22,467 bases of DNA from a virus. A program made the translations under genes and the position numbers. Below are positions 3 through 22,467 of this stretch, piece after piece (position 1 is the first letter of the stretch; each line of letters starts with the position of its first letter). The stretch is taken from IMG/VR virus record IMGVR_UViG_3300044618_002537, positions 1-22,467 of that record. One strand, 5' to 3'. A model generated the notes under the pieces. It made no database searches. It had not been told where the DNA came from and saw only the letters and a list, made by a program, of their open reading frames with translations.

Positions 3-356
3 CGCCACCGTATGGGTTTTGGTTATTGGAGTCTGAGCCGATATCTCAAATACAAAGTTAAAAAAGCCGCTGATTTTTTGTTTCAGTTTGAACGTAATCT
101 TGCTACCTACTGCAAGAAGCGTGGCTATGATGGGGTTATCTGCGGACACATACATCACGCAGAGATCAAAGAGATAGATGGCATAATGTATATGAATGAT
201 GGCGACTGGGTTGAAAGCATGACTGCTTTGGTTGAACATCATTCAGGCACATGGGAAATAGTAACCTGGACCAAGGAACACGACAATGTGGATACTGATA
301 CTGTTGGCAGTGAACATAAACAATCCAAACGACATACCAGGAAGAGTAAGCATTGA
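3..356 (+). CDS. plcP: PlcP/LpxH-like metallophosphoesterase, C-terminal part (truncated by window start)
   Basis: The open frame already runs at base 3, so the gene starts upstream and only its last ~117 codons are visible. The visible part has the LpxH/PlcP C-terminal signature: an RxxMGFGYWSLSRYLKYKVK block, then GVICGHIHH (the GHxH metal-binding motif of calcineurin-like phosphoesterases), then YMNDGDWVES and an ALVEHHSGTWEI strand. LpxH hydrolyses UDP-2,3-diacylglucosamine. PlcP, a relative often annotated as LpxH, is a phospholipase C that removes phospholipid head groups under phosphate starvation, giving diacylglycerol. I prefer PlcP because the next gene is an Agt-type glycosyltransferase, the partner of PlcP in bacterial operons. 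The N-terminal metal-binding motifs lie outside the window. The last ~28 residues are a polar, basic tail (KQSKRHTRKSKH). Family confidence is high; the choice of PlcP over LpxH rests on context. Confidence 0.82.
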   Translation, partial: RHRMGFGYWSLSRYLKYKVKKAADFLFQFERNLATYCKKRGYDGVICGHIHHAEIKEIDGIMYMNDGDWVESMTALVEHHSGTWEIVTWTKEHDNVDTDTVGSEHKQSKRHTRKSKH

Positions 357-459
357 GTTTGCTACCGAATCTGAATGTGTGCGGGCTCAGTCTACCGTGC
401 AGTCCTGGTTGAAATTTGATTCTTTCCGAGTGACCACCAAATGTCAAAAACGATCTTAA
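310..459 (+). CDS. possible small overlapping ORF between plcP and agt
   Basis: A 49-codon frame starts at GTG 310 and ends at TAA 457-459. It overlaps the plcP end by 47 nt and the glycosyltransferase start by 19 nt. Its translation (…SIEFATESECVRAQSTVQSWLKFDSFRV…) has ordinary amino-acid composition and would fill the otherwise unexplained 84-nt gap between the two genes. There is no good ribosome-binding site before the GTG, and I do not recognise the protein. It may be real or chance. Confidence 0.3.
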   Translation: MNINNPNDIPGRVSIEFATESECVRAQSTVQSWLKFDSFRVTTKCQKRS

Positions 460-1448
460 TAATAACTGACAATGTCCCAGATCAAATCAACGGCGTGGTC
501 ACAACTTTCAAAAACCTGGAAGATCACGCTGATAGCAACGGGCATCGTATTGTATATATTGATCCCGGGCAGTTCCCTAATATTGCTTGCCCTGGTTATG
601 CTGAAGTTCGTCTGTGCTGGCCGCACGGTATCAGCAAAAAAATTAAGGCGCTACAGCCGTCGTATATTCACATTGCGACCGAAGGACCAGTAGGCCTATT
701 TGCCCGCTGGTGGTGCGAACGCAATCATGTTCCTTACAACACCAGCTACCACACAGACTTTGCCAAGTTTTTGAAACGAATGTATCATGTGCCTGAGTCC
801 TGGACCTGGTGGTATCTGCGTTGGTTCCACAAAAACAGTCATCGGGTACTGGTCACTACAGAAAGCATACGGCAAGACCTATTGGTACGTGGGTTTGACA
901 ATTTGCGTGTGTGGACTCGTGGAGTAGACCGAACCATATTCAACAGCACTCATCGTGGAGAAACTGTGGCAGGCCGTCCCATATTATTAAGTGTTGGTCG
1001 GGTCAGTGTGGAAAAAGGCCTAGATGATTTTTGCCGGTTAGACATGCCCAATGCTACTAAAATTGTAGTAGGTGATGGTCCATACCGACGAGAACTAGAA
1101 CGCCGGTATCCTGACATTGTTTTTGCAGGTGCCAAACGAGGAATCGACTTGGTTCGTTACTATGCCCAGGCCGATGTGTTTGTTTTTGCCAGTCGAGCAG
1201 ATACCTTTGGTGTGGTCAATATCGAAGCACTAGCCTGCGGAACTCCGGTTGCGGCTTATCCAGTGCCTGGACCCAAGGATATTGTTGAACCTGGACTTAC
1301 TGGATTTCTAAATGACCATTTACGGTTAGCAGTGGAGCAGTGCTTGACCTTGGATCGTGCGGATGTGGAAACGGCCAGTTTAAAATGGACCTGGGCCGAA
1401 TGTTGGCGTATATTTGAGGAAAACTTAGTAGACTGTTCTGTGGCATAA
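441..1448 (+). CDS. agt: GT4-family glycosyltransferase, Agt-like (glycolipid synthesis)
   Basis: This is a complete 335-residue GT-B glycosyltransferase. The N-terminal donor-independent lobe opens with ITDNVPDQINGVVTT, followed by HIATEGPVGLFAR (residues ~78-90) and NTSYHTDFAKFLK (~100-112). The C-terminal lobe has LSVGRVSVEKGLDDF (~182-196), VVGDGP, and the nucleotide-sugar motif FGVVNIEALACGTPVAAYPV with the EX7E arrangement (~255-280). This version, with AAYPVPGPKDIVE, is the one I associate with Agt proteins next to plcP, which transfer sugar from UDP-sugar to diacylglycerol at the inner membrane. The start ATG has no strong Shine-Dalgarno, so it may depend on translation of upstream genes. 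It is closed by an intrinsic terminator at 1462. The sugar specificity cannot be read from the sequence. Confidence 0.85.
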   Translation: MSKTILIITDNVPDQINGVVTTFKNLEDHADSNGHRIVYIDPGQFPNIACPGYAEVRLCWPHGISKKIKALQPSYIHIATEGPVGLFARWWCERNHVPYNTSYHTDFAKFLKRMYHVPESWTWWYLRWFHKNSHRVLVTTESIRQDLLVRGFDNLRVWTRGVDRTIFNSTHRGETVAGRPILLSVGRVSVEKGLDDFCRLDMPNATKIVVGDGPYRRELERRYPDIVFAGAKRGIDLVRYYAQADVFVFASRADTFGVVNIEALACGTPVAAYPVPGPKDIVEPGLTGFLNDHLRLAVEQCLTLDRADVETASLKWTWAECWRIFEENLVDCSVA

Positions 1449-4971: not shown

Positions 4972-5157
4972 ATGAGCAATCATGAAACACTAAAAGCAGC
5001 ATTCGACACATACATCGCGGAAAATGAAAAATTTACAAGCAAAGGTGTAAAAGCTTCGGCCGCACGTGCTCGCAAGGCCCTGCAAGAGATGAGCAAGGCC
5101 ATTAAAGAGCGCCGCAAAGAAATCACAGCAGAGAAAGAAGCATTGGCCGCCAAGTAA
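4972..5157 (+). CDS. small basic protein, histone-H1/Hc1-like composition
   Basis: This 61-residue, lysine- and alanine-rich helical protein contains KASAARARKALQEMSKAIKERRKEI, a pattern like that in bacterial Hc1-like and phage small DNA-binding proteins. AAGGAA (4961-4966) precedes ATG 4972, and a strong promoter plus 5' hairpin sit upstream, so it is probably abundant. A DNA-binding or transcription-related role is inferred from composition alone. It ends two bases before the next gene. Confidence 0.75.
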   Translation: MSNHETLKAAFDTYIAENEKFTSKGVKASAARARKALQEMSKAIKERRKEITAEKEALAAK

Positions 5158-8254: not shown

Positions 8255-8809
8255 ATGCACTTTAATATACGACAAGATCTAGACTTGCTTGAAGCAACTA
8301 CTCGTCCAGCCAAGCTGGAAACTACTCCCCTGCCCTACAGCGAAAAAGCACTGGATCCTGTTCTGAGCAAGGCCAGTATCGATTATCATTATGAGCATTT
8401 GGCCAAAGGTTATGCCCGACGCTACAACGCCGGCGAAGGCAATGCAGATTTTAACCGTGCCGGATCGTTTTTGCATAACAAATTTTTCCCACAATTACAA
8501 GCACCTAAAGGCGCCAATCGTCCCAAAGGTGCTGTGCTAGAACTAATCGAAACCAACTTCAAAACCTATGAAGACTTTAAAGCAGAATTTAAAAAGGTGG
8601 CCATGGCCGTCCAGGGATCGGGCTGGGTATATCTTAGCACATCGGGCACGATTAAAACCATCCCAAATCATCAAGTTAGAACAGATATCTGTGTGCTTGT
8701 TGACTGGTGGGAACATGTCTGGGCTCTAGATTATCAATGGGACAAAGAACGGTACCTAGATAATATATGGAAAATTATCAACTGGAATGTCTGTAGCGAA
8801 CGACTCTAG
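8255..8809 (+). CDS. sodB-like: Fe/Mn superoxide dismutase
   Basis: This 184-residue protein is an iron/manganese superoxide dismutase. All four metal ligands can be placed: His45 (DYHYEHL), His74 (FLHNKFF), Asp150 and His154 (VDWWEHVW). The active-site Tyr is Tyr53, and the GSGWVYL strand is present. The position equivalent to E. coli FeSOD Gln69 is Gly70, as in Mn-type enzymes. The second-sphere residue falls in PNHQV at His139, as in some His-variant SODs, so metal choice is uncertain. A ~20-residue N-terminal extension precedes the usual start (PLPYSEKALDP). It converts superoxide to peroxide and oxygen, probably in the cytoplasm. It starts eight bases after infA; the C-terminus overlaps the next gene by 23 nt. 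Confidence 0.92.
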   Translation: MHFNIRQDLDLLEATTRPAKLETTPLPYSEKALDPVLSKASIDYHYEHLAKGYARRYNAGEGNADFNRAGSFLHNKFFPQLQAPKGANRPKGAVLELIETNFKTYEDFKAEFKKVAMAVQGSGWVYLSTSGTIKTIPNHQVRTDICVLVDWWEHVWALDYQWDKERYLDNIWKIINWNVCSERL

Positions 8810-9592: not shown

Positions 9593-12127
9593 ATGGCACA
9601 ACAAATAATCAACGTAGGCACTTCACCCAACGACGGGCAAGGCGATCCTATACGCACTAGTTTTCAAAAAACTAACAGCAATTTTAGCGAATTATACGCA
9701 CGAGCACAATCATCACCGCCACCGACTTTGGTAGGCAGCATTGGTGACGTGGCCGGCATGTATGCCTTTGACAGTACCTATTTTTACTATTGTTTTGCTA
9801 ACTATGACGGAAGCAGTGTGATCTGGGCCCAGGTTACTCAAATTGCCAACATCACTACTCCTAGTATCAACTTTGGCACAACAAATGTAACTATCCCATC
9901 GTCGGGCGGTAATGTGCTGGTCACTGTGGCTGGCACTGCCAACGTAGCCACTTTCACAGATCAAGGTATACGTGTAAGCGGATCGGTTTCTGCCACCGGG
10001 AATGTAAACGCAGGAAATTTAATAACTACCGGAATAGTTAATTCCAGTGGCAACATCACAGGTGCTTATTTCTTTGGTAATGCATCTACCATGGCTGGAA
10101 TTCCGGCTGCTTATAGCAATGCCAATGTTGTTGCCTATGCCGAAGGTGGCATTGTGGCCAATCTTATTCCTTACGGAAACGCTATCTACAGTCTAGGTAA
10201 CGTGGATAATTTCTGGAAAGATCTGTACCTCAGCAACAGTTCAATTTATCTTGGCAACGTGGTTATCAATGAAGGTTCTACTGGCGGACTTCAGGTTGAT
10301 GGACAAGAAGTGGTCACAGCCAATACTGCTATTGCTGGTGATATTACTACCACTGGAAATGTATCTGGCGATTACTTCTTAGGCAATGGTGCATTTTTAA
10401 CTGGCGTGGTTGTTGCAGGAGGCGCAGGTGCCACTGGAGCAACAGGTCTTACTGGCGCCACTGGCACAACCGGCCTTCAAGGTGCAACAGGCACAACAGG
10501 GTTAACTGGTGCAACTGGCACAGCAGGTACTAATGGATCTACAGGATTAACTGGTGCAACTGGGCCAGCTGGACTTGACGGAGTATCCGGGGTCAATGGC
10601 GCCAATGGTGCTAATGGTGCAACTGGACTTACTGGTACTACTGGTCTCACTGGTGCTACTGGCACCGCAGGCGCAACTGGCGCAGGTACAACTGGAGCAA
10701 CTGGCGTAGGCGCAACTGGCCCTGCCGGTGCAACTGGTATTACAGGAGCAACTGGTCTCACTGGTGCTACTGGCACCGCAGGCGCAACTGGCGTAGGCGC
10801 AACTGGCCCTACCGGTGCAACTGGACCAAGTGGCGGTCCTGTAGGAGCAACTGGCCTGCAAGGTGCAACTGGCACTGGTGTACTAAACGGAGACATGACT
10901 GGTAACATCAATGGTCAAGGTTACAGCATCAGTAATACTGCTAATATATCCACTGCAAATTTATCAGTCACTGGTGCAGTTAATTTAAATTCTAGCAGTA
11001 CCACAGTACCCGGAGTTCAAGTTGGCAGTTACATCTCTGGTCAAAGTGGTCAAAAATTAAACATACTAAATCAGTCAAATGGAATATATCTAGCCGGTGG
11101 TGGATCATCTGATATTGACATAACCAGTAGCTATGTGACCATAGGTAGTGGTCCTGGATTTAGTTTTAATCTTTATTCAAACAATGTTACTTTTTACAAT
11201 AGTCCAAACGTAGCTGGAAACATTAACTTTACCAGCAATATTTCTTTTGCTCAAAATGTTTCTGCCATTGGTAATGTTACTGGAAATTACTTTGTAGGTA
11301 ACGGTGCTTTCTTAACCGGTATATCCGGTGGTAGTGGTGGTATTGGAGCAACTGGCCCACAGGGAGCAACTGGCCCACAGGGAGCAACTGGTATCACAGG
11401 AGCAACTGGAACAGGTACCACAGGCGCAACTGGCGCAGGCACAACTGGAGCAACTGGCCCACAGGGAGCAACTGGTATCACAGGAGCAACTGGAACAGGT
11501 ACCACAGGCGCAACTGGCGCAGGCACAACTGGAGCAACTGGCCCACAGGGAGCAACTGGTCCAAGTGGCGGTCCTATAGGAGCAACCGGAGCAACCGGTC
11601 CTGGCGGTGTTGGCGCAACTGGCCCTACCGGCCCAACCGGCGCAACAGGAGCAGGTGGTGTTGGCTCAACTGGATTCACTGGTGCGACTGGTCCTAGTGG
11701 CGGACCAACTGGAGCCACTGGCCCAACTGGAGCCACTGGTGTTGGCGCAACTAGCAGAACTACAGCTAATGTAAGTACTGGTAGTTTAGGCAATGCAGCT
11801 ACCGCTAACGCAACAATTATTGGATACAAAGGATATAATTTATACAAAATATCCACCACAGATTCTGCTTGGGTTAGAATTTATACCAGTGATGCAGCAA
11901 GAACTGCCGACGCAAGTCGTACTCAAGGCAATGATCCAAACCCGGGTGCTGGTGTACTAGCTGAAGTAATTACCACAGGTAATCAAACCATATTGATGAG
12001 CCCAGGCGTGGTTTGTTACAACGATGAAACACCGCCCAACACTAATATTCCAGTGGCCATTACCAACAACAGTGGAAACACTGTGGCTATCACGGTTGAA
12101 TTGACCATACTGCAAACTGAACTATAA
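9593..12127 (+). CDS. collagen-like phage tail fibre protein 1
   Basis: This is an 844-residue fibre. The N-terminus, [34 protein letters not shown], is a common attachment module of phage structural proteins. A beta-rich part with GNV…[13 protein letters not shown] follows. Two collagen-like Gly-X-Y stretches lie at ~277-430 and ~578-720, dominated by GATG/GLTG triplets, with a beta domain between them that ends in another [13 protein letters not shown]. The C-terminal ~120 residues ([28 protein letters not shown]…) form a globular tip domain I recognise from marine phage tail proteins. It probably trimerises as a triple helix and contributes to receptor binding. An exact 84-bp tandem duplication lies in the second collagen region. 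A late-promoter-like motif precedes it. Confidence 0.88.
11374..11541 (+). repeat. exact tandem duplication, 2 x 84 bp, in fibre gene
   Basis: Bases 11374-11457 are repeated without change at 11458-11541; a third copy begins at 11542 but diverges after 19 bases. Each unit encodes 28 residues of Gly-X-Y sequence, so the reading frame is kept. Elsewhere in the gene, 43 bp at 10640-10682 recur exactly at 10751-10793. Confidence 0.9.
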
Positions 12128-12128
12128 C

Positions 12129-13802
12129 ATGAGTGATATCAACGAATACGTAGTCACACTGAAAAAAGGTCAGGACTGTGACTGTTTTTATGACGACATG
12201 GAAACTCCTGGTGGCACAGACTGCATTCCCGATCGTGCTGTAGAATGTGCAAATCGCAGACCCATAAGCCGTAACACTCACTATTGGTTGACTGCTGCCG
12301 AAGCCGAGGCTTTGCAAAATGATCCTAGAGTGGCCGCTGTTACCATGGGCGATATAGGACGATATGGGGTAGAACCTGTTTGGGAACAGACCGGAACCTT
12401 TAGCAAAACATCCACAGATAACACCAACGATCTAAATTGGGGAGTGTTGCGTTGCGTAGACGGCGTGCAAATTCCTGGCTGGGGCACCGACGGTACGCCA
12501 GATCAAACTGGAACAGCGCAATACAATGCCGCAGGACTTAACGTTGATGTGGTCATCATCGATGGATTCATGGACCCTACGCACCCAGAATTTGCGGTAA
12601 ATTCTGACGGCACAGGGGGTACTCGTGTCAATCAATTCAATTGGTTCAGTCTCAACAGTTATCTGGGGCGACCGGCTCAAAGTCCATATGTGTATACCCC
12701 CGTTGTAGACCCCGGAAATGCTCAAAGAACTACTGACAACAATCATGGTTGTAACGTGGCCGGTATTGCCTGCGGTTCAAATTATGGTTGGGCTCGCAGT
12801 TCCAATATCTACAATATCAATCCCTATGGCACGGATCCCAACAGCATGGATTTTTTCTTGTTATGGGACTACGTCAGAGCTTTTCATGCCACCAAGCCCA
12901 TAAATCCTGCCATCAATCAGCGCAACCCTACTATTTGTAATTGTAGCTATGGGCAGTTTGTCAGATGGCCAAATACCGCCACAGTGCCAGCGTTTGGTCC
13001 AGTGACCTTGGCTCGTTGGGGAGGAGTAACCAGTATCAATTCCTCAGGCTTGAGCAACGATACCTTGTTGGATCGAAGCATCTATGCTGTAGGAGGTGTG
13101 GCCACAACCAATTACTACAATCCAGCCATTGAAGCTGATGTACAGGATGCTCTCGATGATGGCATAGTGGTAGTGGGTGCAGCAGGAAATCTCAATACTG
13201 TGATCTTGTTGCCCACGGATCCCAACTATGATGGACTCGTTGGCAATCGCATCAACGCCACATACGGTGGTACAAATTACTACTGGGACATCAGCAAAGG
13301 TACCACTCCTGGATCGGTGCCCGGAGTTATCTGTGTTGGTTCCGTTGGCACAGCCAGTCAGGAATACAAGTCTAGTTTCAGCAACAATGGACCTGGCATA
13401 GATGTTTTTGCTCCCGGTTCTGATATCATGAGCAGTGTCAACAGCCCCGGCAGTTTTGGCGGTATACCGGACCCTGTGAATCCCAGCTACTGGATTACCA
13501 AACTCAGTGGAACCAGCATGTCCAGTCCGCAGGTTTGTGGCATGTTGGCCTGCCTGATGCAGAGCAATCTAAATCTAACCGCAACACAGGCCAAACAATG
13601 GATTGATTATTATTCAACCAAAAGCCAGATAACCGATACCGGCGGTGAGCAACGTGATCCTACTGCCCTGCGTGGTGCTCCAAATCAGTATCTTTTTGCT
13701 AAAAAACTGCGCCCAGACGATGGCAACACATTTCCGGTTAGTAACTTCTTTATAAGGCCCACTAGCGGCGCTGTTTGGCCTAGACCACAAATACGTAGAT
13801 AA
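12129..13802 (+). CDS. subtilisin-family (S8) serine protease in structural module
   Basis: This 557-residue protein has an S8 fold with the triad intact: Asp145 in VDVVIIDGFMDPTHPEF, His206 in NNHGCNVAGIACG, and Ser463 in LSGTSMSSPQVCGMLA. Asn354 in VVVGAAGNLN is the oxyanion-hole residue. The Asp and His motifs depart from the usual DTG and HGTHVAG. The first ~95 residues, with YVVTLKKGQ and YWLTAAEAEALQNDPRVAAV, look like an I9-type propeptide with an added Cys-rich loop. It starts two bases after fibre 1 and precedes an Ig-like structural protein, so it is probably a virion or tail component or a maturation protease. No signal peptide is seen. Possible roles are fibre processing or digestion of surface protein. 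Confidence 0.88.
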   Translation: MSDINEYVVTLKKGQDCDCFYDDMETPGGTDCIPDRAVECANRRPISRNTHYWLTAAEAEALQNDPRVAAVTMGDIGRYGVEPVWEQTGTFSKTSTDNTNDLNWGVLRCVDGVQIPGWGTDGTPDQTGTAQYNAAGLNVDVVIIDGFMDPTHPEFAVNSDGTGGTRVNQFNWFSLNSYLGRPAQSPYVYTPVVDPGNAQRTTDNNHGCNVAGIACGSNYGWARSSNIYNINPYGTDPNSMDFFLLWDYVRAFHATKPINPAINQRNPTICNCSYGQFVRWPNTATVPAFGPVTLARWGGVTSINSSGLSNDTLLDRSIYAVGGVATTNYYNPAIEADVQDALDDGIVVVGAAGNLNTVILLPTDPNYDGLVGNRINATYGGTNYYWDISKGTTPGSVPGVICVGSVGTASQEYKSSFSNNGPGIDVFAPGSDIMSSVNSPGSFGGIPDPVNPSYWITKLSGTSMSSPQVCGMLACLMQSNLNLTATQAKQWIDYYSTKSQITDTGGEQRDPTALRGAPNQYLFAKKLRPDDGNTFPVSNFFIRPTSGAVWPRPQIRR

Positions 13803-16266: not shown

Positions 16267-18885
16267 ATGTCAGTACCATATACGTTTGCCAATCAATCAG
16301 GTAACATTCCGCTAAGTGAGCTGGATGCTAACTTTTCAACTTTATCCAGTGCTGTACCACCTTATGCTAATGCTGCTGGTACTGCTACAACTGCAATCAC
16401 AGCGCAGACTGCTGCAACAGTTACAAACAATGCTCAACCATCAATAACTTCGGTAGGTACGCTGACATCAGTATCAGTTTCTGGCAACGTAAGCACCAGC
16501 GAATTTTTCTTGGGCAATGGTAGTTTATTAACCGGCCTACAAAGTCAATCGGCTGCTAGTTTGTTGATTGGTAACACATTGAGCAGCAATGTGCTATTCA
16601 GTAGTTTGACCACCGTTGGAAACTTGGCAAATCTCAGTGTCACAGGCAATGTCAACGTGACTGGCAATGTGACCGGCAACTATGTTCTTGGTAACGGTAG
16701 TTTGTTAACTGGTATTGTGACCAGCAGTAATGCTTCAAACATAACCGGAAACACCTTAAGCAGTAATGTGTTGTTTAGTAGTTTGACCACCGTTGGTACG
16801 CTAGCAAATCTCAGTGTTGCTGGCAATGTAACTGCTCCATATTTTATTGGTAACGGTAGTTTACTCACCGGAGTGAGTCCAGGCGCCACCGGAGCAAGTG
16901 GACTAACTGGAGCTACTGGCTTACAAGGCACCACTGGATTTCAGGGTGCAACCGGTACTCCTGGTCTAACAGGCTTTGTTGGTGCCACTGGTTTACAAGG
17001 CGCCACCGGAATTGGTGCTACAGGTGCAAGTGGTATTATTGGCCTACGGGGCGCCACCGGACCAGACGGTATTCAAGGACCACAAGGTGATCCTGGACTG
17101 ATTGGTGCCACAGGAGCAAGTGGTTTAACAGGAGCCACAGGGTTAACTGGGGCCACTGGACCTGGATACACTTTACAATCATCCACCACTGTGGCTATGA
17201 ACCTAGGCCTAGTGACCTTTACTACCAATTTGACTGCATCCACCCAGTCTGCTTATACCGGTGGTGTACGAGTTCGAGCTCTGCAAGGTGTTGGACCAAC
17301 CATATTTTTAGAAGGTATAATCTCCAGTTTCAGCGGCACCAGTTTGACATTGATAGTTGATACCTTGTCAGGATCAGGGTCGCAACCAGGTCCATGGAAT
17401 TTTACACTACAGGGTAACCAAGGCGCCACAGGTGCCAGTGGACTGTCTGGTGCCACAGGCCTAGGATATGCGCTCAACAGTTTATCAAATGTAGAAATAA
17501 CCCTGGCTTCTAATAGAACATTTACCACAACATTTAATACCAATTTAAGTGCGTACTTCACCAACATGCGAATTCGTGCCAGTGCCACACTCGACGAAGA
17601 TGCTTTCATAGATGGTATTATTCAATCAATCAGCGGAACCACCCTAGTGATAGATCCGCAACTAATCAGTGGCTCTGGTTATTATGATGATTGGAAGTTC
17701 AGTGTAGTTGGATTGCAGGGTGCCACTGGATTGACTGGAGCTACAGGACAAGCCATTACTGGACCAGGATATGCCGGATTAACAAGTTCAACAACAAAAA
17801 CACTATCAGCACCAGCGACACTTGCATTTGTTACCAATGTCAATACTGCTAACACTGCATATATTGTAGGTGATCGCGTAAGAGTAATTGACAGCGGCAC
17901 CTACGTCTATTGGGCAGAAGGTCAATTGGTATTGGCATCGGGCACTGATTTTTGGATTGACGCAGATATTGTAAGCACTGCGGGCAATGGATATACCGGC
18001 AACAGTTGGAACTTTTCCATTGCGGGCTTGCAAGGAGCTAGCGGACTGACCGGAGCCACTGGGTCCGGTGCAACTGGATTGACTGGCGCAACTGGCATTG
18101 GAGCCACTGGATTTGATGGAGCTACTGGTTTAACTGGTAGTACTGGACCACAAGGAACCATAGGTGCTACTGGAGCAAGTGGTATACAAGGAACCATAGG
18201 TGCAACCGGTGCCTCTGGATTAACAGGATCAACAGGTGCCACTGGTGCATTCACCGGGGTGCTGACTGCCAACATGGATGGCATGGGTTACAGTGTTTCA
18301 AACATTGGCACATTCCAAGCTGGTAATTTGTCAATGACCGGCAATATTACTTCTATTGGATTTATCAGTGCTGCTGGCAATGTGTTGACTGCAAACAGTT
18401 TGGTCATCGCTGGCGGAGTAGGTGGCGACATCACCGGCGCCAATGTTGTTACGGCAAATGTATTCTCTGCATCTGGCACAATTACAGGTGGCGGATTTAC
18501 AAGCACTGGACTAATAAGCACCACTGGCAATGTTGTTAGTGGTAATGTTCGAACAGGATACATATCAACCACAGGCAACATTGAAGGTAGTGGTGTCGGT
18601 ACCTCTAACATTGAACGTTTTAACATTGGTTTTAGTTTTCCAGGCACTGGAGGATTTACCACTTTGTCCACTTCGAGCAATTATAATGCATATGGCAATG
18701 TTATAATTGTTAATCCAGCTATTTTTACAGTATCTGTGTTCACGGCCAGTGCATTGACCGCTATCACTGGTTCCACAGGTGCAATTGCATCAGTTTCTAA
18801 CAGCCCAACATCGGGCGGAAGATTAGCATTTTGGGACACCACAAACAGCCGCTGGAGTTATGTAAGTGACAATTCTGCAGTTTAA
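16267..18885 (+). CDS. collagen-like phage tail fibre protein 2
   Basis: This is an 872-residue fibre with AGGA (16257-16260) before ATG 16267. The N-terminus has [18 protein letters not shown], a tail-attachment-like motif. Three GNGSLLTG-type repeats follow at ~82, ~142 and ~195, with near-duplicated 55-60-residue units ([16 protein letters not shown]). Collagen-like segments flank three related ~85-residue beta modules at ~300-386, ~400-485 and ~500-589. Each begins near a GP/GL-x-Y motif and ends WNF/WKF…LQG. A second collagen run (~590-663) and a beta-rich tip of ~200 residues end the protein. It lacks the fibre 1 tip domain, so the two may bind different targets. It starts four bases after the previous stop. 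Confidence 0.87.
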
Positions 18886-18900
18886 CATTAAAAAATAACA

Positions 18901-20121
18901 ATGGACATAATAGGAGTTACATTCAACGGCGGCGTAACGGTTTCTACCAGTACAACAGTTGGAAAATTATATGCCTGGGGTTATAACGGAATTTATGGTC
19001 AATTAGGACTAGGTGATCTAGTAAGTCGCTCCGAGCCAACACAAGTAGGTAGCGGAGCATGGACACAAGTAGCCAGTGGCAAAAATGGGCAAAGTTTATT
19101 CTCTGGCGCTGTTGCCAACGACGGCACCTTATGGACTTGGGGTAACAATGCCAGTGGAGCACTCGGACAAGGTAGTTATTCTGGTAACAACTGCTCGTCC
19201 CCTGTACAGGTTGGTACATTGGCCACCTGGAGTAAAATATCCATGGGAAATAACTGTGGTTTTGCAATCAAAACCAATGGCACACTTTGGGCCTGGGGCG
19301 GGGGTGCCAATGGACAACTGGGTCTTAATAATCAATCTGACTATGCCTCACCAAAACAAGTTGGCACACAAACCAACTGGGCACAGATTGAAGGCACTGC
19401 CGGACGATCGACTTTTGCGGTCAAGGCCGATGGCACACTATGGTCTTGGGGTAATAATTTTAACGGACAACTGGGTCAAAACACCGCAGGTTCCCTTGCT
19501 CAACGCAGTAGCCCAGTACAGGTTGGGTCGTTAAACAATTGGTCTCAGGTTGCCGCTTGCGATGGCCAAGGAGCCATGGCTGTTAAAACCGACGGTACCT
19601 TGTGGGGCTGGGGTCGAAACACTCAAGGACAATTAGCACAAGGCGATCTTATAAATCGATCTAGTCCAGTACAAATTGGTTTACAAACCAACTGGGACAA
19701 AGTAGCGGTATCCACTCAAGATACTATGGTCACAGCTGCTATCAAAACCGACGGCACTTTGTGGACCTGGGGACCCGGCAGCAATATGCTGGGACAAGGA
19801 GCCGGTGTTGGTGTACTTACTAGTCCTGTACAAGTTGGTGCCCAAAACAACTGGGCTCAGATCTGTTGCGGGCGTTATCATATGTTGGCTGTTAAAACTG
19901 ATGGAACATTATGGGCCTGGGGCAGCAATAGCAATGGACAATTGGGCACTAACTCGTTGGTTACCACTAACAGCCCTGTACAAGTAGGAGTACTTACTGA
20001 GTGGCAGTCTGCTGATCGAGGCTCATTGGCAGCAGGATGGGGCGAAAGTTTTGCCATAACAAAAATCACAGGAGTATACGTATATCCAGTGCAACTTACT
20101 CAAGTAACCGGAACTCCATAA
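18901..20121 (+). CDS. RCC1-like seven-bladed beta-propeller protein
   Basis: This 406-residue protein is built from seven repeats of about 52 residues, each with L(Y/W)xWGxNxxGQLGxG followed by SPxQVG and a W…VA strand. The repeats start near residues 23, 76, 129, 180, 233, 286 and 337, a full propeller. The LWAWG element, the GQLG turn and the AVKTDGT strand are the RCC1 signature. In eukaryotes RCC1 is a Ran exchange factor, but bacterial and phage RCC1 repeats serve as binding propellers. No signal peptide is seen; the location among fibre genes suggests a virion tip or adhesin. The start ATG 18901 is 15 bases after the fibre 2 stop, with a weak ribosome site. Confidence 0.9.
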   Translation: MDIIGVTFNGGVTVSTSTTVGKLYAWGYNGIYGQLGLGDLVSRSEPTQVGSGAWTQVASGKNGQSLFSGAVANDGTLWTWGNNASGALGQGSYSGNNCSSPVQVGTLATWSKISMGNNCGFAIKTNGTLWAWGGGANGQLGLNNQSDYASPKQVGTQTNWAQIEGTAGRSTFAVKADGTLWSWGNNFNGQLGQNTAGSLAQRSSPVQVGSLNNWSQVAACDGQGAMAVKTDGTLWGWGRNTQGQLAQGDLINRSSPVQIGLQTNWDKVAVSTQDTMVTAAIKTDGTLWTWGPGSNMLGQGAGVGVLTSPVQVGAQNNWAQICCGRYHMLAVKTDGTLWAWGSNSNGQLGTNSLVTTNSPVQVGVLTEWQSADRGSLAAGWGESFAITKITGVYVYPVQLTQVTGTP

Positions 20122-21370: not shown

Positions 21371-21969
21371 ACGTAAGATTAGAATATAGCAGTGAATTTA
21401 TCAGCGGTGTTCATTGGGACAACTCCATGCTCATGAACAATTATACAATTAGGTTGTACATGATGACCAATTGTTCTGACAGTGTCAGCCAAAACATTGC
21501 CTTTGAACGATTAAAGTATTACATTTATAGTCAGCTCAATCACAGTGTTTTTATTAACCAAAACAATGAATTGGCTTTGGAAAAATATCAACAAGCTGGC
21601 ATCAAAACGTTGATGTTGCCAGCCGAACCAGTTGATCAACTGTTGGGTATTATGTTATACTGTAAGCTCAATGCCATCATGGAAGGGCGCATGATCATAA
21701 ACGAAATTGAAATCAGCAGTGACCTCGGTGAACGTATGATTTATCTACATGCCGCAGATGAAAATTTGGGCCCGTTTGAAGACGCCGGGTGGTGGCACAA
21801 TGTTGATTTGCCATCAAGATCTACTTTAGAATCCAACAATGATAAAGTGGTTGCTATGAATAATATCAACGCTTGGCGAGAGCTCGAATTAGATTGGCCA
21901 GAGCTCACCGCATCGGCCGAAGATAATACTGTGGTGTTTGCAGAATTTGGAAAAGATGATACAAAATAA
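21367..21969 (+). CDS. conserved T4-like phage hypothetical protein
   Basis: This encodes 200 residues, ATGA-coupled to the previous gene. Recognisable blocks are IAFERLKYYIYSQLNHSVFINQNNE at ~44-68, TLMLPAEPVDQLLGIMLYCKLNAIMEGRMIINEIEISSDLGERMIYLHAADENLGPF at ~80-137, and GWWHNVDLP. The combination EPVDQLxGxMLxxKLNAIMEgRM with ENLGPF…GWWH is typical of a family in T4-like marine phages with no known function. Its stop codon overlaps the start of the next gene by 14 nt. Confidence 0.82.
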   Translation: MNVRLEYSSEFISGVHWDNSMLMNNYTIRLYMMTNCSDSVSQNIAFERLKYYIYSQLNHSVFINQNNELALEKYQQAGIKTLMLPAEPVDQLLGIMLYCKLNAIMEGRMIINEIEISSDLGERMIYLHAADENLGPFEDAGWWHNVDLPSRSTLESNNDKVVAMNNINAWRELELDWPELTASAEDNTVVFAEFGKDDTK

Positions 21970-22467
21970 ATTTGGTGAATTAGTATATTCTGAATCAGAT
22001 GTGTGCGATTTGCTCATGCAAGGACAAAGCACAGTTGATTTAAAAAATTTAATTGTTGACAACACCGTGGATTTAGCCCGATTGTTAGACATATTGGATC
22101 CTGTGCCAGAATTTGTGTGTGAACAAGAACATAGCGCAACTGTGTCTGAATTTCATGCAAAGCAACAATCAAATTGGCACATGCCCAAAGAATATAAAAA
22201 TGTTGACATAGCCGAGCATATTTTAAATTTGTGTACCAGTCAAGACGAATTGCAAAGATGCGGCGCAGAATTGTTAATGTATCAAGAACGAGATTTGTTT
22301 GATTTGTTACAATATCTTCGATATCTAGTCGATGTCATGCAACAAAATCAGATCATCTGGGGAGTAGGCCGCGGGAGTAGTGTGGCCAGTTACGTATTAT
22401 ATAAATTAGGAGTGCATCGTATTGACAGCATGTACTATGATTTAGACCCCTCAGAGTTTTTGCGTTA
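21956..22467 (+). CDS. phage protein with DNA polymerase III alpha-like GRGS element (truncated by window end)
   Basis: The frame opens at ATG 21956, overlapping the previous gene, and is still open at the window end after 170 codons. The first ~120 residues contain SNWHMPKEYKNVDIAEHILNLC and ERDLFDLLQYLRYLVDVMQQN. Residues ~136-168 read GVGRGSSVASYVLYKLGVHRIDSMYYDLDPSEFL, which closely resembles the palm segment GxGRGSxAGSLVAYxLGITDxDPLxxdLLFERFL of bacterial DnaE/PolC. The downstream PDxDxDF catalytic Asp motif is not visible, and neither is a PHP domain at the N-terminus. I recall short proteins of this type in marine T4-like phages, so it is probably a stand-alone relative and not a full polymerase. 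Confidence 0.75.
   Translation, partial: MIQNKFGELVYSESDVCDLLMQGQSTVDLKNLIVDNTVDLARLLDILDPVPEFVCEQEHSATVSEFHAKQQSNWHMPKEYKNVDIAEHILNLCTSQDELQRCGAELLMYQERDLFDLLQYLRYLVDVMQQNQIIWGVGRGSSVASYVLYKLGVHRIDSMYYDLDPSEFLR

Follow-up and report, generated by a model that had tools for sequence, protein, structure and literature searches.

A putative PhoB-controlled operon for membrane lipid remodelling in large T4-like phages known from metagenomes

Can a phage carry both of the enzymes with which bacteria strip phosphate from their membrane lipids and replace it with sugar, and, if so, is the pair tied to phosphate shortage? The question is raised by one end of a viral contig, IMG/VR record IMGVR_UViG_3300044618_002537, of which positions 1-22,467 were analysed (hereafter the window). 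The initial annotation, made from the sequence alone, read window positions 3-1448 as a plcP-agt pair in a T4-like phage and inferred that the phage performs both steps, freeing phosphate for its own DNA or keeping the membrane intact while doing so. The observation is confirmed and the interpretation is supported, although the annotation missed a conserved small gene between the two, and the enzymatic activities, the lipid change during infection, and the benefit to the phage are inferred.

The first gene, at window 3-356 on the plus strand, is the 3' part (117 of 274 codons) of an open frame that has no upstream start inside the window and contains the motifs CGHIHH and GDWVES. It is completed on a sister contig, L084 (IMGVR_UViG_3300044624_002493, 59.8 kb), which carries an identical glycosyltransferase gene and encodes a 274-aa metallophosphoesterase at L084:5092-5916, preceded by a short unnamed ORF and, further upstream, a rubrerythrin gene (L084:3779-4219). 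The second gene, at window 441-1448 on the plus strand, is a complete ORF of 335 aa that contains AAYPVPGPKDIVE. Pfam assigns Metallophos/Metallophos_2 domains to the first protein and GT4 domains to the second. A terminator-like hairpin with a T-run follows the second gene at 1462-1486 on the plus strand (AAAGCCCG GTAAAA CGGGCTTT TTT); it was read by eye and was not listed by a consensus scan, probably because its T-run is counted in the stem.

Several lines of evidence indicate that the first gene encodes PlcP rather than LpxH. The two NCBIfam LpxH equivalog models score far below their cut-offs (TIGR01854, 31 of 190 bits; NF003743, 44 of 134 bits). A scan of bacterial genomes returned Proteobacteria and Campylobacterota PlcP proteins that align at about 46-58% identity over nearly the full length. 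In a tree of 70 proteins, ten LpxH sequences (E. coli plus nine from genomes that also have PlcP) separate from all 60 phage and bacterial PlcP sequences with support of 100 on a very long branch, the longest in the tree. The calcineurin-like metal-ligand residues (D13, H15, D43, D46, N84, H85, H122, H206, and H208) are invariant in the phage and bacterial members aligned. The predicted fold alone does not decide the matter; the model is only moderate (pLDDT 79), and its nearest solved structure is LpxH (Z about 19, 19-20% identity), as expected for the wider family.

The second gene groups with Agt. When the phage GT4 was searched against ten bacterial genomes, its best match in all six that have the operon was the gene immediately downstream of plcP (E 1e-73 to 1e-90, 41-44% identity), with the next GT4 in any of those genomes no better than 1e-25. 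Phage GT4s and the Agt genes adjacent to plcP in Proteobacteria form one clade in both a quick tree of 82 sequences (support 99) and a careful tree of 34 (98/100), apart from WaaG in both trees, WaaB in the quick tree, and other GT4s. The protein is modelled confidently as a GT-B fold (pLDDT 93; MshA, Z 29.9). Of 14 residues probed by mutation in the SAR11 (HTCC7211) enzyme GTcp (PMC8231724), twelve are invariant across the phage and bacterial members aligned, and the window protein has the identical residue at all 14. The residues needed for GTcp activity, G16, G82, G85, H104, R163, R190, K195, D256, T257, F258, G259, E264, and W320, are all present in the window protein. However, 13 of 36 phage GT4s, not including that of the window, carry Glu where GTcp needs Asp256 (for example, those of the loci L062, L010, and L069), which may signal a changed donor or acceptor; D256E cut GTcp activity by more than 90%.

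The pair is a recurrent feature of viral contigs. All 46 viral copies of this GT4 that are not cut by a contig end have plcP upstream on the same strand, 42 of them within about 130 nt and the rest within 0.91 kb. Contigs with plcP reach 525 kb, and 15 of 24 tested also encode the T4 major capsid protein gp23; L086, a locus whose contig has gp23, shares the genes that follow agt with the window. Both genes evolve under strong purifying selection (dN/dS 0.03-0.13 where measurable). Elsewhere in the window are an Fe/Mn superoxide dismutase gene (8255-8809), which with the rubrerythrin gene of L084 places oxidative-stress genes in the same phage, a subtilase (S8) gene (12129-13802) and an RCC1-repeat protein gene (18901-20121) among collagen-repeat tail-fibre genes (9593-12127 and 16267-18885), and, running off the window end at 21938-22465, a gene matching a phage family of DNA polymerase III alpha-like proteins (phrog_11127). 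In locus L007 the GT4 is directly followed by a CHASE2-domain adenylate/guanylate cyclase gene (L007:7431-9446; identified by Pfam), a membrane sensor in a phage; similar genes follow the GT4 in L050 and L083, as judged by sequence likeness.

A third gene lies between the two enzymes. A 57-aa ORF (MWILILLAVNINNPNDIPGR...CQKRS) at window 286-459 on the plus strand, in another frame, overlaps the plcP end by 71 nt and the GT4 start by 19 nt. It is found in 188 viral loci (109 distinct), with an in-frame ATG 8-10 codons before the aligned start in 185, and outside the plcP overlap its pN/pS is 0.31 in its own frame against 1.29 and 1.28 in the other two. It was not seen in the bacterial plcP loci searched or in reference phages; a match to Mosig_00121 was disregarded as circular, because that sequence was part of the alignment behind the profile. 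The protein begins with a short hydrophobic stretch, and a role as a membrane tether for PlcP or the glycosyltransferase is only a guess.

Other phages keep plcP but exchange Agt for a different glycosyltransferase. In the close sample, the plcP loci without GT4 all have, where sequence continues, a GT2 gene of 235-241 aa in the same place (44 loci; for example, L009:6439-7161). A search with that GT2 found plcP directly upstream in 73 of 79 loci, nearby in 2, and cut off by contig ends in 4, with no GT4 in any. In a wider, more distant sample of 80 distinct plcP loci, 43 had GT4, 11 had GT2, 17 had neither nearby, and 9 ended too early. Bacterial plcP genes likewise have varied partners (PMC4796936), which by inspection of the ORFs include a BtaA-like protein (locus L183) and MGDG-synthase-like proteins (L180 and L204). 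The phage GT2 was not found beside bacterial plcP, and it has only weak matches in ten bacterial genomes and in reference phages.

Is the module linked to phosphate shortage? The window does not contain the region upstream of plcP, but a search for Pho boxes, as the initial annotation had proposed, was positive in relatives, including L084. A direct repeat with 11-bp spacing (consensus TGTAAYANAAY TGTAATA) occurs in 60 of 89 distinct 100-nt phage plcP upstreams, whereas Markov shuffles give a mean of 1.4 and a maximum of 5, and other spacings give 0-7. On L084 it lies at 5042-5063 (TGTAACACAAG TGTAATATCTT), 28 nt before the plcP start. The spacing and form are those of a Pho box, for which the E. 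coli unit is probably TGTCATA, although the fourth base in the phage repeats is mostly A instead of C, and 29 of 89 upstreams lack the repeat. Upstreams of bacterial plcP show the same preference for spacing 11 (23 of 77, against 0-1 at other spacings), mostly as GTCAY, and the repeat accompanies both phage glycosyltransferase variants. A strict genome-wide Pho pattern finds few sites; of its ten hits, three lie just before plcP and four before the pstS that follows agt. A TAAATA motif resembling the T4 late promoter lies within 25 nt of the plcP start in 65 of 89 upstreams (L084:5080-5088), without an obvious Shine-Dalgarno, so late expression is possible instead of, or besides, PhoB control. 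A recurrent hairpin-like element, CTGGANCCGTAACCAG, often after a GGTCAC...GGTGAC segment, also lies near plcP or the end of the glycosyltransferase gene (L084:4771-4786, L064:5507-5522, L092:7019-7034, L112:7018-7033, and others) and has no Rfam match.

The strongest evidence that the module serves phosphate shortage is its linkage to pstS. In L092, L109, and L113 the gene after agt is PstS, in L092 and L109 behind three tandem repeats. Six of 24 long contigs have PstS above cut-off, and by position all six sit directly before plcP or directly after the glycosyltransferase. Over all loci retrieved, 33 distinct cases lie near plcP, most with the 11-bp repeat. One contig that carries pstS-plcP-GT2 also has a permuted tmRNA gene (L028:2973-3554).

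Taken together, these results support, with good confidence, a phage-borne lipid-remodelling operon, plcP - small ORF - agt, most likely switched on by PhoB of an as yet unknown host when the cell is short of phosphate. PlcP would remove the phosphorylated head group from host phospholipids to leave diacylglycerol, and Agt would add a sugar from a UDP-sugar to make a glycolipid that can keep the membrane intact, with the released phosphate feeding synthesis of the large phage genome. In part of the lineage, a phage PstS beside the operon would add phosphate uptake. Enzyme identity is well supported by sequence, whereas activity, PhoB binding, the lipid change in infected cells, and phosphate supply as the benefit are inferred.

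Alternatively, the two enzymes may remodel membrane lipids mainly to change the cell surface, for superinfection exclusion or resistance to other phages, predators, or cationic peptides. Glycosyltransferases of temperate phages alter host surfaces (discussed in PMC12619734), and lipid composition has been linked to phage attachment and antibiotic protection. This purpose seems unlikely, as the Pho-box-like repeats and pstS linkage tie the module to phosphate shortage and PlcP is needed only if the lipid phosphate is removed. It is more doubtful still that the GT4 glycosylates phage DNA, virion protein, or host polysaccharide and merely sits beside a phosphate-scavenging PlcP. The glycosyltransferases of large aquatic phages are usually discussed as DNA or virion modifiers (PMC12619734), and some phage members carry Glu at the position of GTcp Asp256, but the strong clade with plcP-adjacent Agt, the constant linkage to plcP, and the conservation of the diacylglycerol-contact residues R163 and W320 in all 36 phage members argue against another acceptor. 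A true LpxH paired with an LPS glycosyltransferase is very unlikely; despite the LpxH-like fold and the annotation of isolated relatives as UDP-2,3-diacylglucosamine hydrolase/diphosphatase, the equivalog scores and both sets of trees oppose it, and LpxH and PlcP coexist as separate genes in bacterial genomes. Finally, although the gene runs off the contig end and the family is bacterial in origin, misassembly of bacterial DNA onto a phage contig is contradicted by the recurrence of the pair with viral flanks in many contigs from many samples, by the separate phage clades, and by the small ORF and GT2 variant, which were not found in the bacterial plcP loci.

PlcP, Agt, and PhoB-controlled phage genes are each known (PMC4796936, PMC8231724, PMC10976474). 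The bacterial plcP-agt operon of SAR11 and Erythrobacter (context type 2 in PMC4796936) has the same two enzymes, adjacent and in the same order, with Pho-box-type repeats upstream in part of the bacterial set; the phage version differs in its T4-like carriers, the overlapping 57-aa gene, the AT-rich TGTAAY repeat, a GT4 only about 40-45% identical to bacterial Agt, the use of GT2 in part of the lineage, and pstS beside it in some members. The phage GT4 shares with GTcp and A. tumefaciens Agt its length (335 against 334 aa), the motifs GRVxxEK and FxSxxDTFG, the His104/Asp256 dyad, and the Arg163 and Trp320 equivalents, but belongs to a distinct viral clade in which some members have Glu for Asp256. 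Among reference phages, only Pelagibacter phage Mosig EXVC030M, Synechococcus phage S-SRM01, and one unannotated gut-derived record have a PlcP-like gene. Those of Mosig and S-SRM01 are 48% and 36% identical and annotated as LpxH-type, with no glycosyltransferase beside plcP, although Mosig has a phosphate ABC transporter (PstS-like) gene next to it. The plcP-agt DNA has no match in reference phages, and a GT4 hit in 'Acinetobacter phage MD-2021a' (CAKLQH020000017.1) is flanked by bacterial housekeeping genes and looks like mislabelled chromosome. No published phage plcP-agt operon was found in ten full-text searches of an open-access library, subscription papers and preprints not being covered; a study of phosphorus genes in soil phages does not mention plcP or lipids.

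A broader reading, judged somewhat more likely than not, is that a family of T4-like jumbo phages has its own modular, PhoB-controlled lipid-swap cassette, with a fixed PlcP and a new small membrane protein, an exchangeable lipid glycosyltransferase (Agt-type GT4, or a GT2 that was not found beside PlcP in any cell), and an optional PstS. Infection would then turn host phospholipid into phage-specified glycolipids to pay for viral DNA. By a rough estimate, a 350-kb genome holds about 700,000 phosphates, so a burst of tens of virions may need roughly as many phosphates as a bacterium has phospholipids. Phage phosphate genes known so far act mainly on uptake and nucleotide recycling, as do those of cyanophages placed under the host PhoBR system, which are reported to act in phosphate uptake and nucleotide metabolism (PMC10976474). 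Here the phage would draw on the largest non-nucleic-acid phosphate store of the cell, its membrane.
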